A DNA stretch of 20,916 nt. Origin: a virus. The notes beneath the pieces were generated by a model. That model searched no databases, was not told the origin of the DNA, and saw nothing but the letters and a program-made list of their open reading frames with translations. The position numbers were made by a program, and so were the translations under genes. Positions 7,144-20,403 of the stretch are shown one piece after another; position 1 is the stretch's first letter, and every line of letters begins with the position of its first letter. The stretch spans positions 1 to 20,916 of the IMG/VR virus record IMGVR_UViG_3300046313_000494; one strand, 5' to 3'.

Positions 7144-9054
7144 ATGAAAAAATTAGTTTTACTTTTACTACTACCATTTATAGGATTCGGACAGAGTGTA
7201 TCTGCTCCGGATTCTAAGTCTTTCCTACTTAGTACAAGTGGACAGGACGCAAGTGGATTTGTATTAAGTGGATTTGCACCAACTGCAACTATACTAGCAT
7301 CAATCAGTTTAGTAGAGTTTCCAACAGGTACTACATTCTACCTAAGCAGTTATACAAACCTAACCCCAGCAAGTGGATTTGGAATGGTAGGTAATAAAAC
7401 TCGTTTAGTATTTACTGGAACAATGTCGAGTATCAATACAGCATTAGCATCTCTAAAAGTAAACACAGGTTCAGCAACAGGTAATGTTAAACTATCAGTA
7501 GCTGCAACAATTAATCCAACAGGATTTTATTATAACGGAGTAAACGGTCACTTCTACAAACCGGTAACAACAGGTGCATTTTACAAAGATGCAAGAGCCG
7601 CATCACTACTGACAACATTCAAAGGACAGACAGGTTACCTAGTAACAATTACCTCAGCTTCAGAAGATGCTTTTATTCAAGCAAATGTACCTCAAACCAA
7701 TATATGGTTTGCTTGTACAGATGAAGTAATTGATGGTAGATGGGTAATTGATGCAGGACCAGAAAAAGGTACAGTAATTAAAACATCAAACCCAAATAGT
7801 GGAAACGTTGTAGGACAATACAACAACTGGGCAGGTGGTGAACCGAATGGATATAATCATGGTGAGGATTATGCGGTAACAAAGTGGAATGGTAATCAAT
7901 GGAACGATCTAGCAAACAACTGGTACAATCCATATGTAATTGAATACGGAACTTGGACTAATCCTGATGATGCTGCCTTTACTGAGTTCTATACTAACAG
8001 TACTTCACATACAGCAGGAGATGTATTTAATGTTAAGTTTAATTTTAACTTTGGGATTCTTGATGAGACTAAATTCTCAACTAAGATGTTCTACACTCCT
8101 CAAGGAAGCACAACTCTACTACCTGTAACAGCAAGAGCATATACGGCACTAAATGCTTTAGGGAAAGTTGACATGACAGCAGATTCAGACTCAACTAAAC
8201 CTAACATGGTACTTGCATTTGCTCCTTTCACCTCAACTAATCTGACATCACTATACGATCAGATAGTAACAGTATCAGATGTATACTTAGCATTTAAGGA
8301 ATTAGCAAATGGAGGTATAATGGGTAACCAATCAGGGAATGAACTTACCTCAGGAATGCAGTACGTAAATGCAGATGTAGATTTAAATGGCATATTTGAT
8401 GAGGCTGATTGTTTCAGATTACTTCAGCATTTGACTGGAGATAGAGTATTAATAGAATCACCAACTCTTTCAAACACAATGGAGTTGATAGAGAATCCAA
8501 GTCTAATTACAAAAACAAACTGGTATACTTTTACTAACTCAACTAGATCAACATACCCTGTAACAGTACAGTCTGGAGTATTTTCTTACAACTATACTTT
8601 AAATGTATCATGGAAAGGAGACGTTAATCTATCTCATACAGCAAATGCTTCAACAGGTAAGCTAACTACTCTAAGTAGTAAAACAGTTTCAAGCGGTATA
8701 CAAGCCTCTTTAGTAACAGAACAAATAGACGGTAAGGTATGTGTTACAGTTAAACTAGATCCACTAAAAGAATCAGTAGTAGGAACTCAGTTTAGATTAG
8801 ATTACGATAACACACTCTTGCAATTTGAGAAAGTACAATCAACAGCTAAAGCTAACAACTTTGGTACAAATAGAGGAGAGTATATTAATTTTGGTTCACT
8901 AGTAAGCGACGATACAATATTGGATAATACAGTAGAGTATAGACTCACATTCAAACCAATACAGACTCTAACTAACACTTTAGGATTAACATCCATATCG
9001 TATACGGATGCTGTTAGTAAAGAAGGAGCACAACTTAAAATAACAATGATGTAA
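7144..9054 (+). CDS. Secreted C-type-lectin protein with dockerin-like and cohesin-like modules
   Basis: The 636-residue product has a signal peptide ending G-F-G-Q (residue 17). Residues 25-120 resemble cadherin-like repeat domains of surface proteins. Residues about 129-268 are a C-type-lectin fold: W-A-G-G-E-P-N (E-P-N at 233-235), G-E-D-Y-A (241-242) and W-N-D (253-255) are the Ca/sugar-site signatures, and E-P-N is the mannose-type version. Residues 374-431 are dockerin-like: Q-I-V-T-V-S-D-V-Y-L-A-F, then D411-x-D413-x-N415-G, D419 and D422 in clean EF-hand-like spacing. Residues about 510-636 are cohesin-like. It shares the last two modules with the preceding gene, so the pair arose by duplication plus insertion of the lectin domain. 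Likely role: a secreted or surface glycan-binding protein held in place by cohesin-dockerin contacts (inference). Confidence 0.8.
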   Translation: MKKLVLLLLLPFIGFGQSVSAPDSKSFLLSTSGQDASGFVLSGFAPTATILASISLVEFPTGTTFYLSSYTNLTPASGFGMVGNKTRLVFTGTMSSINTALASLKVNTGSATGNVKLSVAATINPTGFYYNGVNGHFYKPVTTGAFYKDARAASLLTTFKGQTGYLVTITSASEDAFIQANVPQTNIWFACTDEVIDGRWVIDAGPEKGTVIKTSNPNSGNVVGQYNNWAGGEPNGYNHGEDYAVTKWNGNQWNDLANNWYNPYVIEYGTWTNPDDAAFTEFYTNSTSHTAGDVFNVKFNFNFGILDETKFSTKMFYTPQGSTTLLPVTARAYTALNALGKVDMTADSDSTKPNMVLAFAPFTSTNLTSLYDQIVTVSDVYLAFKELANGGIMGNQSGNELTSGMQYVNADVDLNGIFDEADCFRLLQHLTGDRVLIESPTLSNTMELIENPSLITKTNWYTFTNSTRSTYPVTVQSGVFSYNYTLNVSWKGDVNLSHTANASTGKLTTLSSKTVSSGIQASLVTEQIDGKVCVTVKLDPLKESVVGTQFRLDYDNTLLQFEKVQSTAKANNFGTNRGEYINFGSLVSDDTILDNTVEYRLTFKPIQTLTNTLGLTSISYTDAVSKEGAQLKITMM

Positions 9055-15726: not shown

Positions 15727-15800
15727 GCCTCGTTGGCGTAATAGAAGCGTAATTGTTTTACATGCAATAGGCGGTGGAGCATAACCATCACGAGGCACCA
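15727..15800 (+). tRNA. tRNA-Val(UAC) with aberrant T-loop, CCA encoded
   Basis: Acceptor GCCTCGT/ACGAGGC, D-stem GCGT/GCGT (wobble ends), anticodon stem ATTGT/GCAAT with loop TTTACAT, T-stem GGTGG/CCATC. The T-loop is AGCATAA, almost the same as in the neighbouring tRNA-Lys, and the D-loop AATAGAA has no GG. A73 is followed by a genomic CCA (15798-15800). Confidence 0.85.
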
Positions 15801-15948: not shown

Positions 15949-16455
15949 ATGAACAAGTATCAAAAAACACTAGTAGTGGATTCAAGCTTTATGGCAAGAA
16001 GTGTTATCAGTACTGAAAGAGCGTTCGTGATTTCATATAAAGGTAATGCTGAAATAGTAGCTGAGCATCCAGAGACATTCGGATTAGTAAATCCACAATT
16101 AGAGATATTTAAACCATCTATCATCAGAGTGTTTAAATACGTAAAGCAAAACATCCACAAAGTACCTCTAACAAGAGAGAATGTGTACCGAAGAGATAAC
16201 TTCGAATGTGTATACTGTGGAAACAGTCACATCAAATCATTGACATTAGATCACGTGATTCCTCAATCAAAAGGAGGAAAAGATAGTTGGGACAATTTAG
16301 TGACCGCTTGTAGAAGCTGCAATAGTGAGAAAGCAGACTTAACATTGGACGAATACGGAAAAGAGATTCCAGAACCTAAACGTCCCCACTATTTAATGTT
16401 GATGAAACAAATGCATGACATACCAAAAGAATGGGAAACATTTTTATTTTTTTAG
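15949..16455 (+). CDS. HNH endonuclease inside the tRNA array
   Basis: Of 168 residues, 1-75 form the small N-terminal domain seen in Bacteroidota HNH proteins (V-V-D-S-S-F, then S-T-E-R-A-F-V-I-S-Y, then I-I-R-V-F-K-Y-V). Residues 80-130 are the HNH core: C87-x-x-C90, L-T-L-D101-H102-V-I-P-Q-S-K-G-G-K, N116-L-V-T-A-C121-x-x-C124-N125. The four Cys bind structural zinc; D-H, N and N are the nuclease residues. It sits between tRNA-Tyr and tRNA-Cys, and the array promoter motif is repeated just after it, consistent with later insertion. Family members include homing nucleases and McrA-like defence nucleases; here a homing or selfish role is most likely (inference). Confidence 0.88.
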   Translation: MNKYQKTLVVDSSFMARSVISTERAFVISYKGNAEIVAEHPETFGLVNPQLEIFKPSIIRVFKYVKQNIHKVPLTRENVYRRDNFECVYCGNSHIKSLTLDHVIPQSKGGKDSWDNLVTACRSCNSEKADLTLDEYGKEIPEPKRPHYLMLMKQMHDIPKEWETFLFF

Positions 16456-18719: not shown

Positions 18720-19634
18720 ATGAAAAATTCGTTAGCAGAAAAAGGGTTATCAATGTCTCAAGCACAATCAATCTCAAACTTGTGCAACCAAAGAGCAAAA
18801 GAGATTGCATCAAAACTATCAGATGTAAATAATGCATCAAAGCAAATCGTAATTGACAAAGTAACTTACACAGAACAACAAGGAATCGAACTTCCAGCAA
18901 ACGTAAGTGAGTTACTAATTGAAAAAGCAAGACTATCTGCTACTCAAGCATTCTTGATGGAGAACATCAAAGCTAAGGACGAATTAATCAACTCAATAAA
19001 AGGAGAGTACTTCGAGTTCGCTACTCCAGCTCCAGTCCGTCCTGACTATGTAGAGGCTAACCAAATCAACTCAGTGAATGAGAAATGGGGATGGGATCAG
19101 CTAACAGTTGCAGAGTATAACGAATTCCTAGAAGCAGAGGCATTTGCTGCACACATAGGGCAATTTATCCACAAAGGTGGTAAGTTAGATCAGCTAAGAG
19201 CTGAACTTCCAACTATTAAGACTTTAGAGTTCATGGAGATTGAAACAGGTAAGAAAACACCTATGACAATTTCAGTTCATCATAAAGCAGATGACTTAAT
19301 GGAACTACACGAGGAATTAGCAGGTCTACATAGAGGATATGAGCAAAAGGTAAACTACTTCAAAGCGAAAGTAAAAAATGCAGTAACGGCTGAAAATGCT
19401 AGAATTGCAAAAGAAAATGCAATCGCAGAGAGTAATGCAGATGAAACAAACGAGGTACTAAGAAACAGTTACAAACAAGTGGCTGATGCTTGGCAATCAC
19501 AATACAAAAAAGCACTTCAAGAGTTTGAAGCACAACGTCAAGTAAGAATCCAAACAGCTGCCAATTTACGAATTGAAGTAGCACCAAGATTCCAAGACGT
19601 AGTAGATGAGTTCTTGAAAGCAGTAAAAGAATAG
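18720..19634 (+). CDS. 304-residue hypothetical helical protein
   Basis: Largely alpha-helical and soluble. Residues 1-100 contain M-S-Q-A-Q-S-I-S-N-L-C-N-Q-R-A and V-S-E-L-L-I-E-K-A-R-L-S-A-T-Q-A-F-L. A middle part has W-G-W-D-Q-L-T-V-A-E-Y-N-E-F-L-E-A-E. The last 100 residues form a charged, Ala-rich coiled-coil-like helix (K-N-A-V-T-A-E-N-A-R-I-A-K-E-N-A-I-A-E) ending in V-A-P-R-F-Q-D-V-V-D-E-F-L. It has its own promoter of the common type, so it may be well expressed. No motif identifies a function; a scaffold or nucleoid-type role cannot be excluded. Confidence 0.7.
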   Translation: MKNSLAEKGLSMSQAQSISNLCNQRAKEIASKLSDVNNASKQIVIDKVTYTEQQGIELPANVSELLIEKARLSATQAFLMENIKAKDELINSIKGEYFEFATPAPVRPDYVEANQINSVNEKWGWDQLTVAEYNEFLEAEAFAAHIGQFIHKGGKLDQLRAELPTIKTLEFMEIETGKKTPMTISVHHKADDLMELHEELAGLHRGYEQKVNYFKAKVKNAVTAENARIAKENAIAESNADETNEVLRNSYKQVADAWQSQYKKALQEFEAQRQVRIQTAANLRIEVAPRFQDVVDEFLKAVKE

Positions 19635-19635
19635 T

Positions 19636-19970
19636 GGTACCAAGGGGGAGAAGCACAAGCTGATACCCCTAAGGTTTTATGCTGGAAGTATGGAGTTTTT
19701 AATTATATATACAAGATAAACTATAACTTAAATATGACATCATTTATTTAGTACCTTCGGGTCTAAATGACCAATCCGCTTCCCTACACCTTTATACAAA
19801 ACTGAGATAGAACTCAATAACTAGATATGTTACTCCTTTGAGAGACTAAAAGTAGCTAGTGAAAAGAGACTTAGTTTTTGTCTTTGCCCTTGCGGTAGAG
19901 GAAGGTCTTTAACTTTGATTTAGTATTTGACATCGACTATATACTCTATCTTCCAGCAACATAGTAATAC
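19636..19970 (+). ncRNA. 5' domain of a gene-free structured RNA region
   Basis: No coding frame of credible length. Hairpins include AGGGG/CCCCT with inner AGC/GCT (19643-19670), ATTTAG...ACC-TTCG-GGT...CTAAAT with a UUCG tetraloop (19746-19768), GTTACT/AGTAGC inside ACTAG/CTAGT, and CCTT/AAGG near 19888-19906. GNRA- or UUCG-capped stable hairpins in an A/T-rich genome point to a functional RNA, perhaps one molecule with the next domain. Confidence 0.5.
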
Positions 19971-20187
19971 AATTTAACACCTCGACGGCTGTCTATGGCC
20001 GGTACAACTTATAGACTAGGCGTGTTGATAGTGGTAACCTCGCAACAGTACCCGATTAAGTTCAAGGAAAGATACGGCATAGAGCATTAGGTAACGAACA
20101 CGACGGAGTCCTAATCATTCCCACGAGAAGTAATTCTCAAGTAGCCCGGTACGACCAGAGTGCGGATAGAGGTGTTAAATTTTTTTT
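19971..20187 (+). ncRNA. Structured RNA of about 215 nt with 13-bp closing stem and T-run
   Basis: AATTTAACACCTC (19971-19983) pairs perfectly with GAGGTGTTAAATT (20169-20181), and eight T follow from 20180, so this stem may also end transcription. Inside: GTCTAT/ATAGAC (19991-19996/20011-20016), TGTTG/CAACA (20023-20027/20043-20047), ATTAGG/CCTAAT (20086-20091/20110-20115), and GAGAA-GTAA-TTCTC with a GNRA loop (20125-20138). GGTAC in the first loop can pair with GTACC at 20048-20052 as a pseudoknot. The domain is clearly richer in G and C than nearby genes. It does not match RNase P, tmRNA or group I/II cores that I know. Confidence 0.65.
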
Positions 20188-20206
20188 AAAATAATCACAA
20201 AAAGGC

Positions 20207-20237
20207 TTGCTTACGTAGGTCTTTTTTTGTATATTTA
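20207..20237 (+). promoter_or_regulatory. Promoter TTGC-N19-TATATTTA
   Basis: TTGC at 20207-20210, 19 bases, TATATTTA at 20230-20237, 19 bases before the ATG at 20257. It restarts transcription after the structured RNA. Confidence 0.78.
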
Positions 20238-20256
20238 GGTATAAGAAAAAGGGGTT

Positions 20257-20403
20257 ATGAAAAATCAAATGGATTGGAAAAAAATGGGATTTAAGACTGA
20301 AAAAGAGTACTTAGATTTCTTAGAAGAAAAATGGCAATCTTTGAAGAAGAAATTAGAGCAGCCAGAAATCAAAGCAGTATTTAAACGATTAGCAGATAGG
20401 TAG
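20257..20403 (+). CDS. 48-residue charged protein
   Basis: A short frame directly behind a promoter and 2 bases before the phosphoesterase gene. The product is helical and strongly basic/acidic: M-D-W-K-K-M-G-F-K-T-E-K-E-Y-L-D-F-L, then W-Q-S-L-K-K-K-L-E-Q-P-E-I-K-A-V-F-K-R-L. No family recognised; likely co-translated with the downstream enzyme. Confidence 0.65.
   Translation: MKNQMDWKKMGFKTEKEYLDFLEEKWQSLKKKLEQPEIKAVFKRLADR

Follow-up and report, generated by a model that had tools for sequence, protein, structure and literature searches.

The gene-free stretch behind the tRNA genes of this Flavobacterium-type phage is, as judged from its homologues, composed of two RNAs: RNA1 (19634-19962) and a separate RNA2 (about 19971-20187). 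RNA1 follows a gene for a protein of 304 amino acids, and the comparisons made here suggest that the two together form a new phage RNA-protein device. The most distinctive feature of the region, which is absent from the initial annotation, is an array of UUG-NNN repeats with a 6-nt pitch at 19872-19935. All positions refer to the window, i.e. the whole stretch of 20,916 nt that was analysed, which is a 20.9-kb viral contig.

An IMG/VR search with the 304-aa protein yielded 80 loci, nearly all of which carry DNA resembling 19636-19965 of the window behind the gene. Past 19965 the similarity of these loci is lost and returns only at a terminator module (about 20183-20240), and this break implies that the region, initially described as one large structured RNA of some 550 nt near the tRNAs, is composite. 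The remainder of that description is borne out: no ORF of at least 50 aa is present on the + strand inside 19636-20187, 11-12 tRNA genes lie upstream, and covariation is found where a coding frame is not. The 13-bp stem is exact as well (AATTTAACACCTC at 19971-19983 with GAGGTGTTAAATT at 20169-20181, and eight T at 20180-20187), but it closes RNA2 and not the whole region, RNA1 being closed by a stem of its own (19680-19696/19943-19958). The folding energy of the region is only mildly unusual (z -2.0, with 2 out of 100 shuffles equally good); minimum free energy alone is weak evidence, and it is the comparison of homologues that provides the proof of structure.

RNA2 is, on comparative grounds, a second, independent structured RNA. 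Its seven sequences share internal blocks that include GCGUGUUGAUAGUGGUAA and GACCAGAG, and in its closing stem letters are replaced with pairing kept in L244 and partly in L237. The annotated GTACC (20048-20052) and GGTAC (20148-20152) are present and covary in homologues (GTAAC/GTTAC, GTAAT/ATTAC); the proposed pseudoknot, in which this pairing would cross GCGUGUU/AACACG, is possible but unproven, since the latter helix hardly varies. The window and L009/L010 are the only places where RNA2 follows RNA1 directly; in L025 it lies ~550 nt further down. Its other copies occur in contigs where no RNA1 was found, most RNA1 copies are without an adjacent RNA2, and the RNA2 copies are mostly situated near tRNAs. 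In the window and in L009, where RNA2 follows directly, the T-rich tail found behind many RNA1 copies is less pronounced, and both RNAs could share the T8 of RNA2 there. Downstream, an intergenic module resembling a terminator plus promoter (about 20183-20247) is repeated in carrier contigs, and Flavobacterium phage immuto has four copies of it; when the region was compared by BLAST with 50,697 phage records, only this terminator repeat and chance matches were returned.

Features of the RNA region and of the gene upstream, in window coordinates
Feature	Position	Strand	Evidence or remark
304-aa partner gene	18720..19634	+	homologues (44-69% identity) upstream of RNA1
RNA1, whole structured RNA	19634..19962	+	93 non-redundant homologues, covarying helices
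P0, 5' side	19634..19636	+	pairs with 19960-19962; 94% of cells paired, 78 compensatory cells
P1 hairpin	19639..19675	+	conserved AAGCACAAGCYGAU interior; compensatory changes in 10/10 pairs
P2 closing stem, 5' strand	19680..19696	+	pairs with 19943-19958; compensatory in 17/17 pairs, 88% paired
P3, 5' strand	19779..19787	+	pairs with 19896-19904; compensatory in 9/9 pairs, 93% paired
Conserved ACTGAGATAGAACTCA hairpin	19801..19816	+	kept in most homologues; basis of RNA-only search pattern
P4 hairpin domain	19820..19860	+	97% of cells paired, compensatory in 7/8 pairs
Array 1: UAG 19872, UUG 19878, UUG 19884, UUG 19890	19872..19892	+	exact 6-nt spacing
P3, 3' strand, between the two arrays	19896..19904	+	pairs with 19779-19787
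Array 2: UUA 19909, UUG 19915, UAG 19921, UUG 19927, UCG 19933	19909..19935	+	6-nt spacing
P2 closing stem, 3' strand	19943..19958	+	pairs with 19680-19696, covariation
RNA2, with 13-bp closing stem and T8 tail	19971..20187 (start about)	+	7 distinct sequences
Terminator-like hairpin 3' of RNA2	20199..20226	+	part of intergenic repeat common to immuto

Fold and triplet arrays of RNA1

A profile of the RNA1 core was found in 188 fetched loci (including those obtained with the RNA-only DNA pattern), and RNA1 is represented by at least 93 different viral sequences from uncultured phages. Within the data searched it occurs in viral contigs only; the RNA pattern also gave 20 matches in GTDB genomes, which were taken as chance because none of them scored as RNA1. 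From the 93 non-redundant sequences, RNAalifold yielded P0, P1, the long closing stem P2, P3 and P4. Across the 53 pairs of this fold, 90.2% of the cells are standard pairs, whereas column shuffles give 70.8% and partners displaced by 1-3 columns 37.7-49.5%. There are 1149 compensatory cells, versus 165-313 for displaced partners and a mean of 372 in shuffles (these two being the controls, rather than a full phylogenetic null), and compensatory changes are present in 50 of the 53 pairs. Almost all leading column pairs by corrected G-score fall inside the helices P0-P4, the middle pair of P0 reaches a z of 18.7, and in a second alignment, of the RNA1 core, RNAalifold found compensatory changes in 14 out of 16 pairs. 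The covariance model R1 matches the window, which was part of its training set. A pairing between the conserved AUAGA loop and the conserved UCUAU near the 3' end is possible but is not claimed here, as the loop changes in homologues without a matching change opposite. Covariation in homologues, which had been named beforehand as a check, is thus extensive in RNA1, and the protein-coding frame that had been named as counter-evidence was not found in it. By its covariation RNA1 is a real RNA, and it is non-coding.

The arrays are two U-rich strands, one of four triplets between P4 and P3' and one of five between P3' and P2', the second being followed by a conserved CUAUAU (19937-19942). Not a single insertion or deletion occurs inside either array among the 93 sequences, the block of array 2 has a constant 38 nt in all of them, and units 4 and 5 are 18 or 19 nt apart. 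G frequency is autocorrelated at lag 6 (0.99 in array 1, 0.98 in array 2) and negatively so at lags 1-5. In phase, 7.5 of the nine triplets are UUG or UAG, compared to at most 0.35 off phase. A pairing of the two arrays with each other was rejected, as no covariation between them was seen in the G-scores. That this periodic stretch would be a remnant of coding sequence (alternating beta-strand codons) and not an RNA feature is hardly credible, even though the array length is constant and slightly more than half of the sequences can be read through both arrays in one frame without meeting a stop. What argues against it is that, in the frame set by the repeat, codons whose first base is fixed vary freely at their second (0.11 bit of information, column 344). 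Depending on which frame is read, 45-95% of the sequences contain stops, and the median length of the longest open stretch in RNA1 is 39 codons. A coding frame in RNA1 was rejected on this distribution of stops across frames.

Linkage to the protein gene and setting in the phage genome

A member of the 304-aa family lies upstream of RNA1 in 89 of the 93 loci, which are all those whose contig reaches far enough; in the remaining four, about 175 nt at most lie between RNA1 and the end of the contig. Among the other neighbours, no gene family occurs in more than 21 of the 93 loci. The linkage holds from both directions, as loci fetched through the RNA alone have the same ~300-aa protein upstream, while in the three protein loci without RNA1 (L039, L047 and L059) the contig does not reach beyond the gene match. 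Moreover, the distances between RNA1 sequences and those between the proteins are correlated (Mantel r 0.75, with a maximum of 0.12 in 999 permutations). In 74 of 88 loci no more than 20 nt lie between the stop codon and the start of RNA1; in 11 of the 88 the gap exceeds 100 nt, with other DNA inserted, which speaks against taking a transcript shared by gene and RNA1 for granted.

The RNA stretch is flanked by the 304-aa gene and by a small ORF preceding a phosphoesterase gene. The first 3.9 kb of the window have 85% DNA identity to immuto, a cultured sister phage, and the helicase and ribonucleotide reductase proteins are 90-93% identical to those of immuto (93% for the reductase). The immuto genome is otherwise syntenic, but its phosphoesterase gene comes immediately after a tRNA gene, without the 304-aa gene or RNA1 in between, and no RNA1 was found in this genome with the RNA1 model. 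The gene-RNA1 unit is consequently accessory at this site. From the loci compared, gene and RNA1 are best described as a two-part accessory unit of tailed phages, which spans 18720-19962 and encodes a protein of roughly 303 aa. Its carriers include contigs of 100-434 kb, and a tRNA gene is predicted within 3 kb of RNA1 in 59 of the 93 loci. With tblastn the 304-aa protein had no match in the phage record collection, nor was it found in 395 bacterial genomes of the Flavobacterium class (a set without an internal positive control). Among the cultured phage genomes searched, none has the protein or RNA1.

Several other elements were observed in these contigs. In the window, the tRNA array contains an HNH endonuclease gene (15949-16455), relatives of which lie near RNA1 in 21 of the 93 loci, and an additional tRNA at 15727-15797 (47.4 bits in Rfam) was not called by ARAGORN. 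A protein with a C-type lectin and a cohesin domain, encoded at 7144-9054, is poorly conserved with respect to its syntenic immuto counterpart. In another viral contig, a Hatchet ribozyme (RF02678, 82.3 bits; L197:1091-1253) is situated ~3 kb upstream of RNA1.

The 304-aa family has 34 invariant positions among 73 sequences, is acidic (median pI 5.9) and has no usable match in Pfam, PHROG, PADLOC or NCBIfam. The AlphaFold model of the protein is confident (pLDDT 89) and consists of two units of a helix, a beta-hairpin and a long helix. Against the PDB no significant match was obtained, either for the whole chain or for residues 116-242 alone: the best Foldseek E values were 0.037 and 0.57, respectively, and VIA-align Z scores reached 6.6 and 7.9, which is within the usual noise for helical models. 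VIA rows with prefoldin and with Psu of phage P4 are within this noise, and the protein may have a known fold all the same. The sole clear structural relative of the model is a protein from an uncultured phage.

Possible function of the RNA1-protein pair

The reading we prefer, with slightly less than even credence, is that RNA1 and the protein form a ribonucleoprotein encoded by this phage accessory unit, in which the arrays serve as multivalent binding strips and which probably acts on the host or on the expression of phage genes. RNA1 would be made as the 3' part of the transcript of the 304-aa protein, would then fold, and would associate with that protein, which the fixed linkage between gene and RNA1 indicates as the partner. 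The arrays would be single-stranded multivalent strips held apart by P3, and each triplet would dock, in a TRAP-like manner, on a protein surface that is present in several identical copies, as in an oligomer or a ring. As a particle that presents or sequesters proteins, the product would probably act on the host or on the expression of phage genes, and in this phage RNA2, located behind RNA1, would supply the T8 tail. A series of identical protein surfaces would call for a fixed pitch while leaving the spacer bases free to vary; the TRAP site is the nearest known case. No TRAP gene (PF02081) was found in the 12 RNA1 carrier contigs searched, which may be fragments, while the Bacillus subtilis control genome was positive; a ring, if there is one, would thus have to consist of the 304-aa protein or of one from the host. 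The acidity of the 304-aa protein and its predicted structure, which matches no known RNA-binding fold, speak against a ribonucleoprotein, and RNA1 and the protein could also travel together without touching. Somewhat less probable is a further reading, by which the pair would represent a phage ribonucleoprotein of a new class: the folded RNA would present two UUG strips with an exact 6-nt pitch to an oligomeric protein, and the resulting multivalent assembly, of defined make-up, would take over or protect the gene-expression machinery of the host.

A real rival, although we deem it unlikely, is that RNA1 is a decoy (sponge) for host proteins with a cold-shock domain or another OB-fold, with the U-rich arrays offering tandem sites of ~6 nt for binding as single strands and the adjacent protein acting separately. 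What makes it a real rival is that the consensus of Bacillus CspB (GTCTTTG/C, with six base subsites; PMC7825780) is found as GUCUUUG or GUCUUUC in 76 of the 93 RNA1 sequences, and a pitch of 6 nt fits one domain per repeat. As no cold-shock protein gene was found in the 12 RNA1-bearing contigs, the target would have to be that of the host. Cold-shock domains, however, have low sequence specificity (PMC7825780), separate monomers do not need a spacing that is free of indels over 93 sequences, and the strict link to the 304-aa gene is left unexplained. Equally improbable to us is a cis-acting role, in which RNA1 would be a 3' UTR element of the 304-aa mRNA that stabilises it, terminates its transcription or allows autoregulation by the protein. 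The short distance to the stop codon in most loci is consistent with this, as is the terminator-like succession of P0/P2 and a T-rich tail (at least four consecutive T in 40 of 93 sequences). Yet the size and complexity of RNA1 are far beyond those of a terminator, other DNA separates it from the gene in the 11 loci with a wide gap, and such sequence conservation would rarely be needed to regulate one message.

We consider it very improbable that RNA1 keeps the protein inactive, in the style of type III systems, as part of a toxin-antitoxin-like or abortive-infection unit. The pair is indeed an accessory, co-inherited, two-component unit of a protein and a repeat-bearing RNA. On the other hand, neither ToxN nor AbiF, nor any other convincing match, was found in Pfam (no ToxN/Abi-family match among the 73 family members at E 0.01), NCBIfam or PADLOC. 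RNA1 lies behind the gene and not in front of it, and its repeats are 6-nt triplets within one fold instead of tandem folded units.

Comparison with known RNA systems

The initial annotation had considered a divergent GOLLD or ROOL RNA, or else a new class. Phages and prophages encode GOLLD and ROOL as large structured RNAs, frequently in the neighbourhood of tRNA islands (PMC12286853), a setting that RNA1 and RNA2 share as structured phage RNAs near tRNAs. At the curated Rfam cut-offs, however, the window gave tRNAs only and ten homologous loci gave no GOLLD or ROOL, and a search of 19600-20260 up to E = 10 gave chance matches, among which neither was present. RNA1 (~330 nt) and RNA2 (~220 nt) are also much shorter than GOLLD and ROOL, whose lengths are about 660 nt and frequently above 800 nt (~600-900 nt as one RNA). 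Furthermore, the latter are RNA-only cages that have Rfam models and no known protein partner, whereas neither RNA1 nor RNA2 matches an Rfam model and RNA1 has a protein gene as its fixed neighbour. OLE RNA is a structured RNA that works with dedicated proteins; it is bacterial and longer than RNA1. A dedicated protein is also what is proposed here for RNA1, but the 304-aa protein belongs to no known family, and RNA1 had no OLE match in Rfam.

As for the arrays, an invariant 6-nt spacing is unusual for RNA, and it is relevant to TRAP-like rings, cold-shock proteins and RNA scaffolds alike. The TRAP site consists of 11 GAG/UAG repeats with spacers of 2-3 nt (PMC3913778). RNA1 resembles it in having triplets that end in G at a regular, short spacing (nine, with 3-nt spacers), but in place of some 11 (G/U)AG triplets it has mostly UUG and some UAG, and these lie within a folded RNA that is not a trp leader and are split 4+5 by a helix. 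The likeness to cold-shock targets consists in the pitch, which equals the footprint of one domain, and in the shared consensus word; the difference is that the spacing in RNA1 is invariant over all sequences, which loosely specific monomers do not need.

No prior description of RNA1 or RNA2 was found in the literature, which was searched mostly outside subscription journals. Of the two initial suggestions it is the new class that is supported, in the form of two unrelated RNAs, the first of them with a conserved protein gene at its side. This constant neighbour makes the function directly testable: it is a known candidate partner, the triplet arrays lend themselves to clear-cut mutants, and a natural relative that lacks the unit is cultured, namely the immuto phages of Flavobacterium sp. 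LMO8. That phages have structured RNAs close to tRNA genes is already known; RNA1 and RNA2 add to phage biology two structured RNA classes that are new at the family level, the first of which, unlike GOLLD and ROOL, has a constant protein neighbour.
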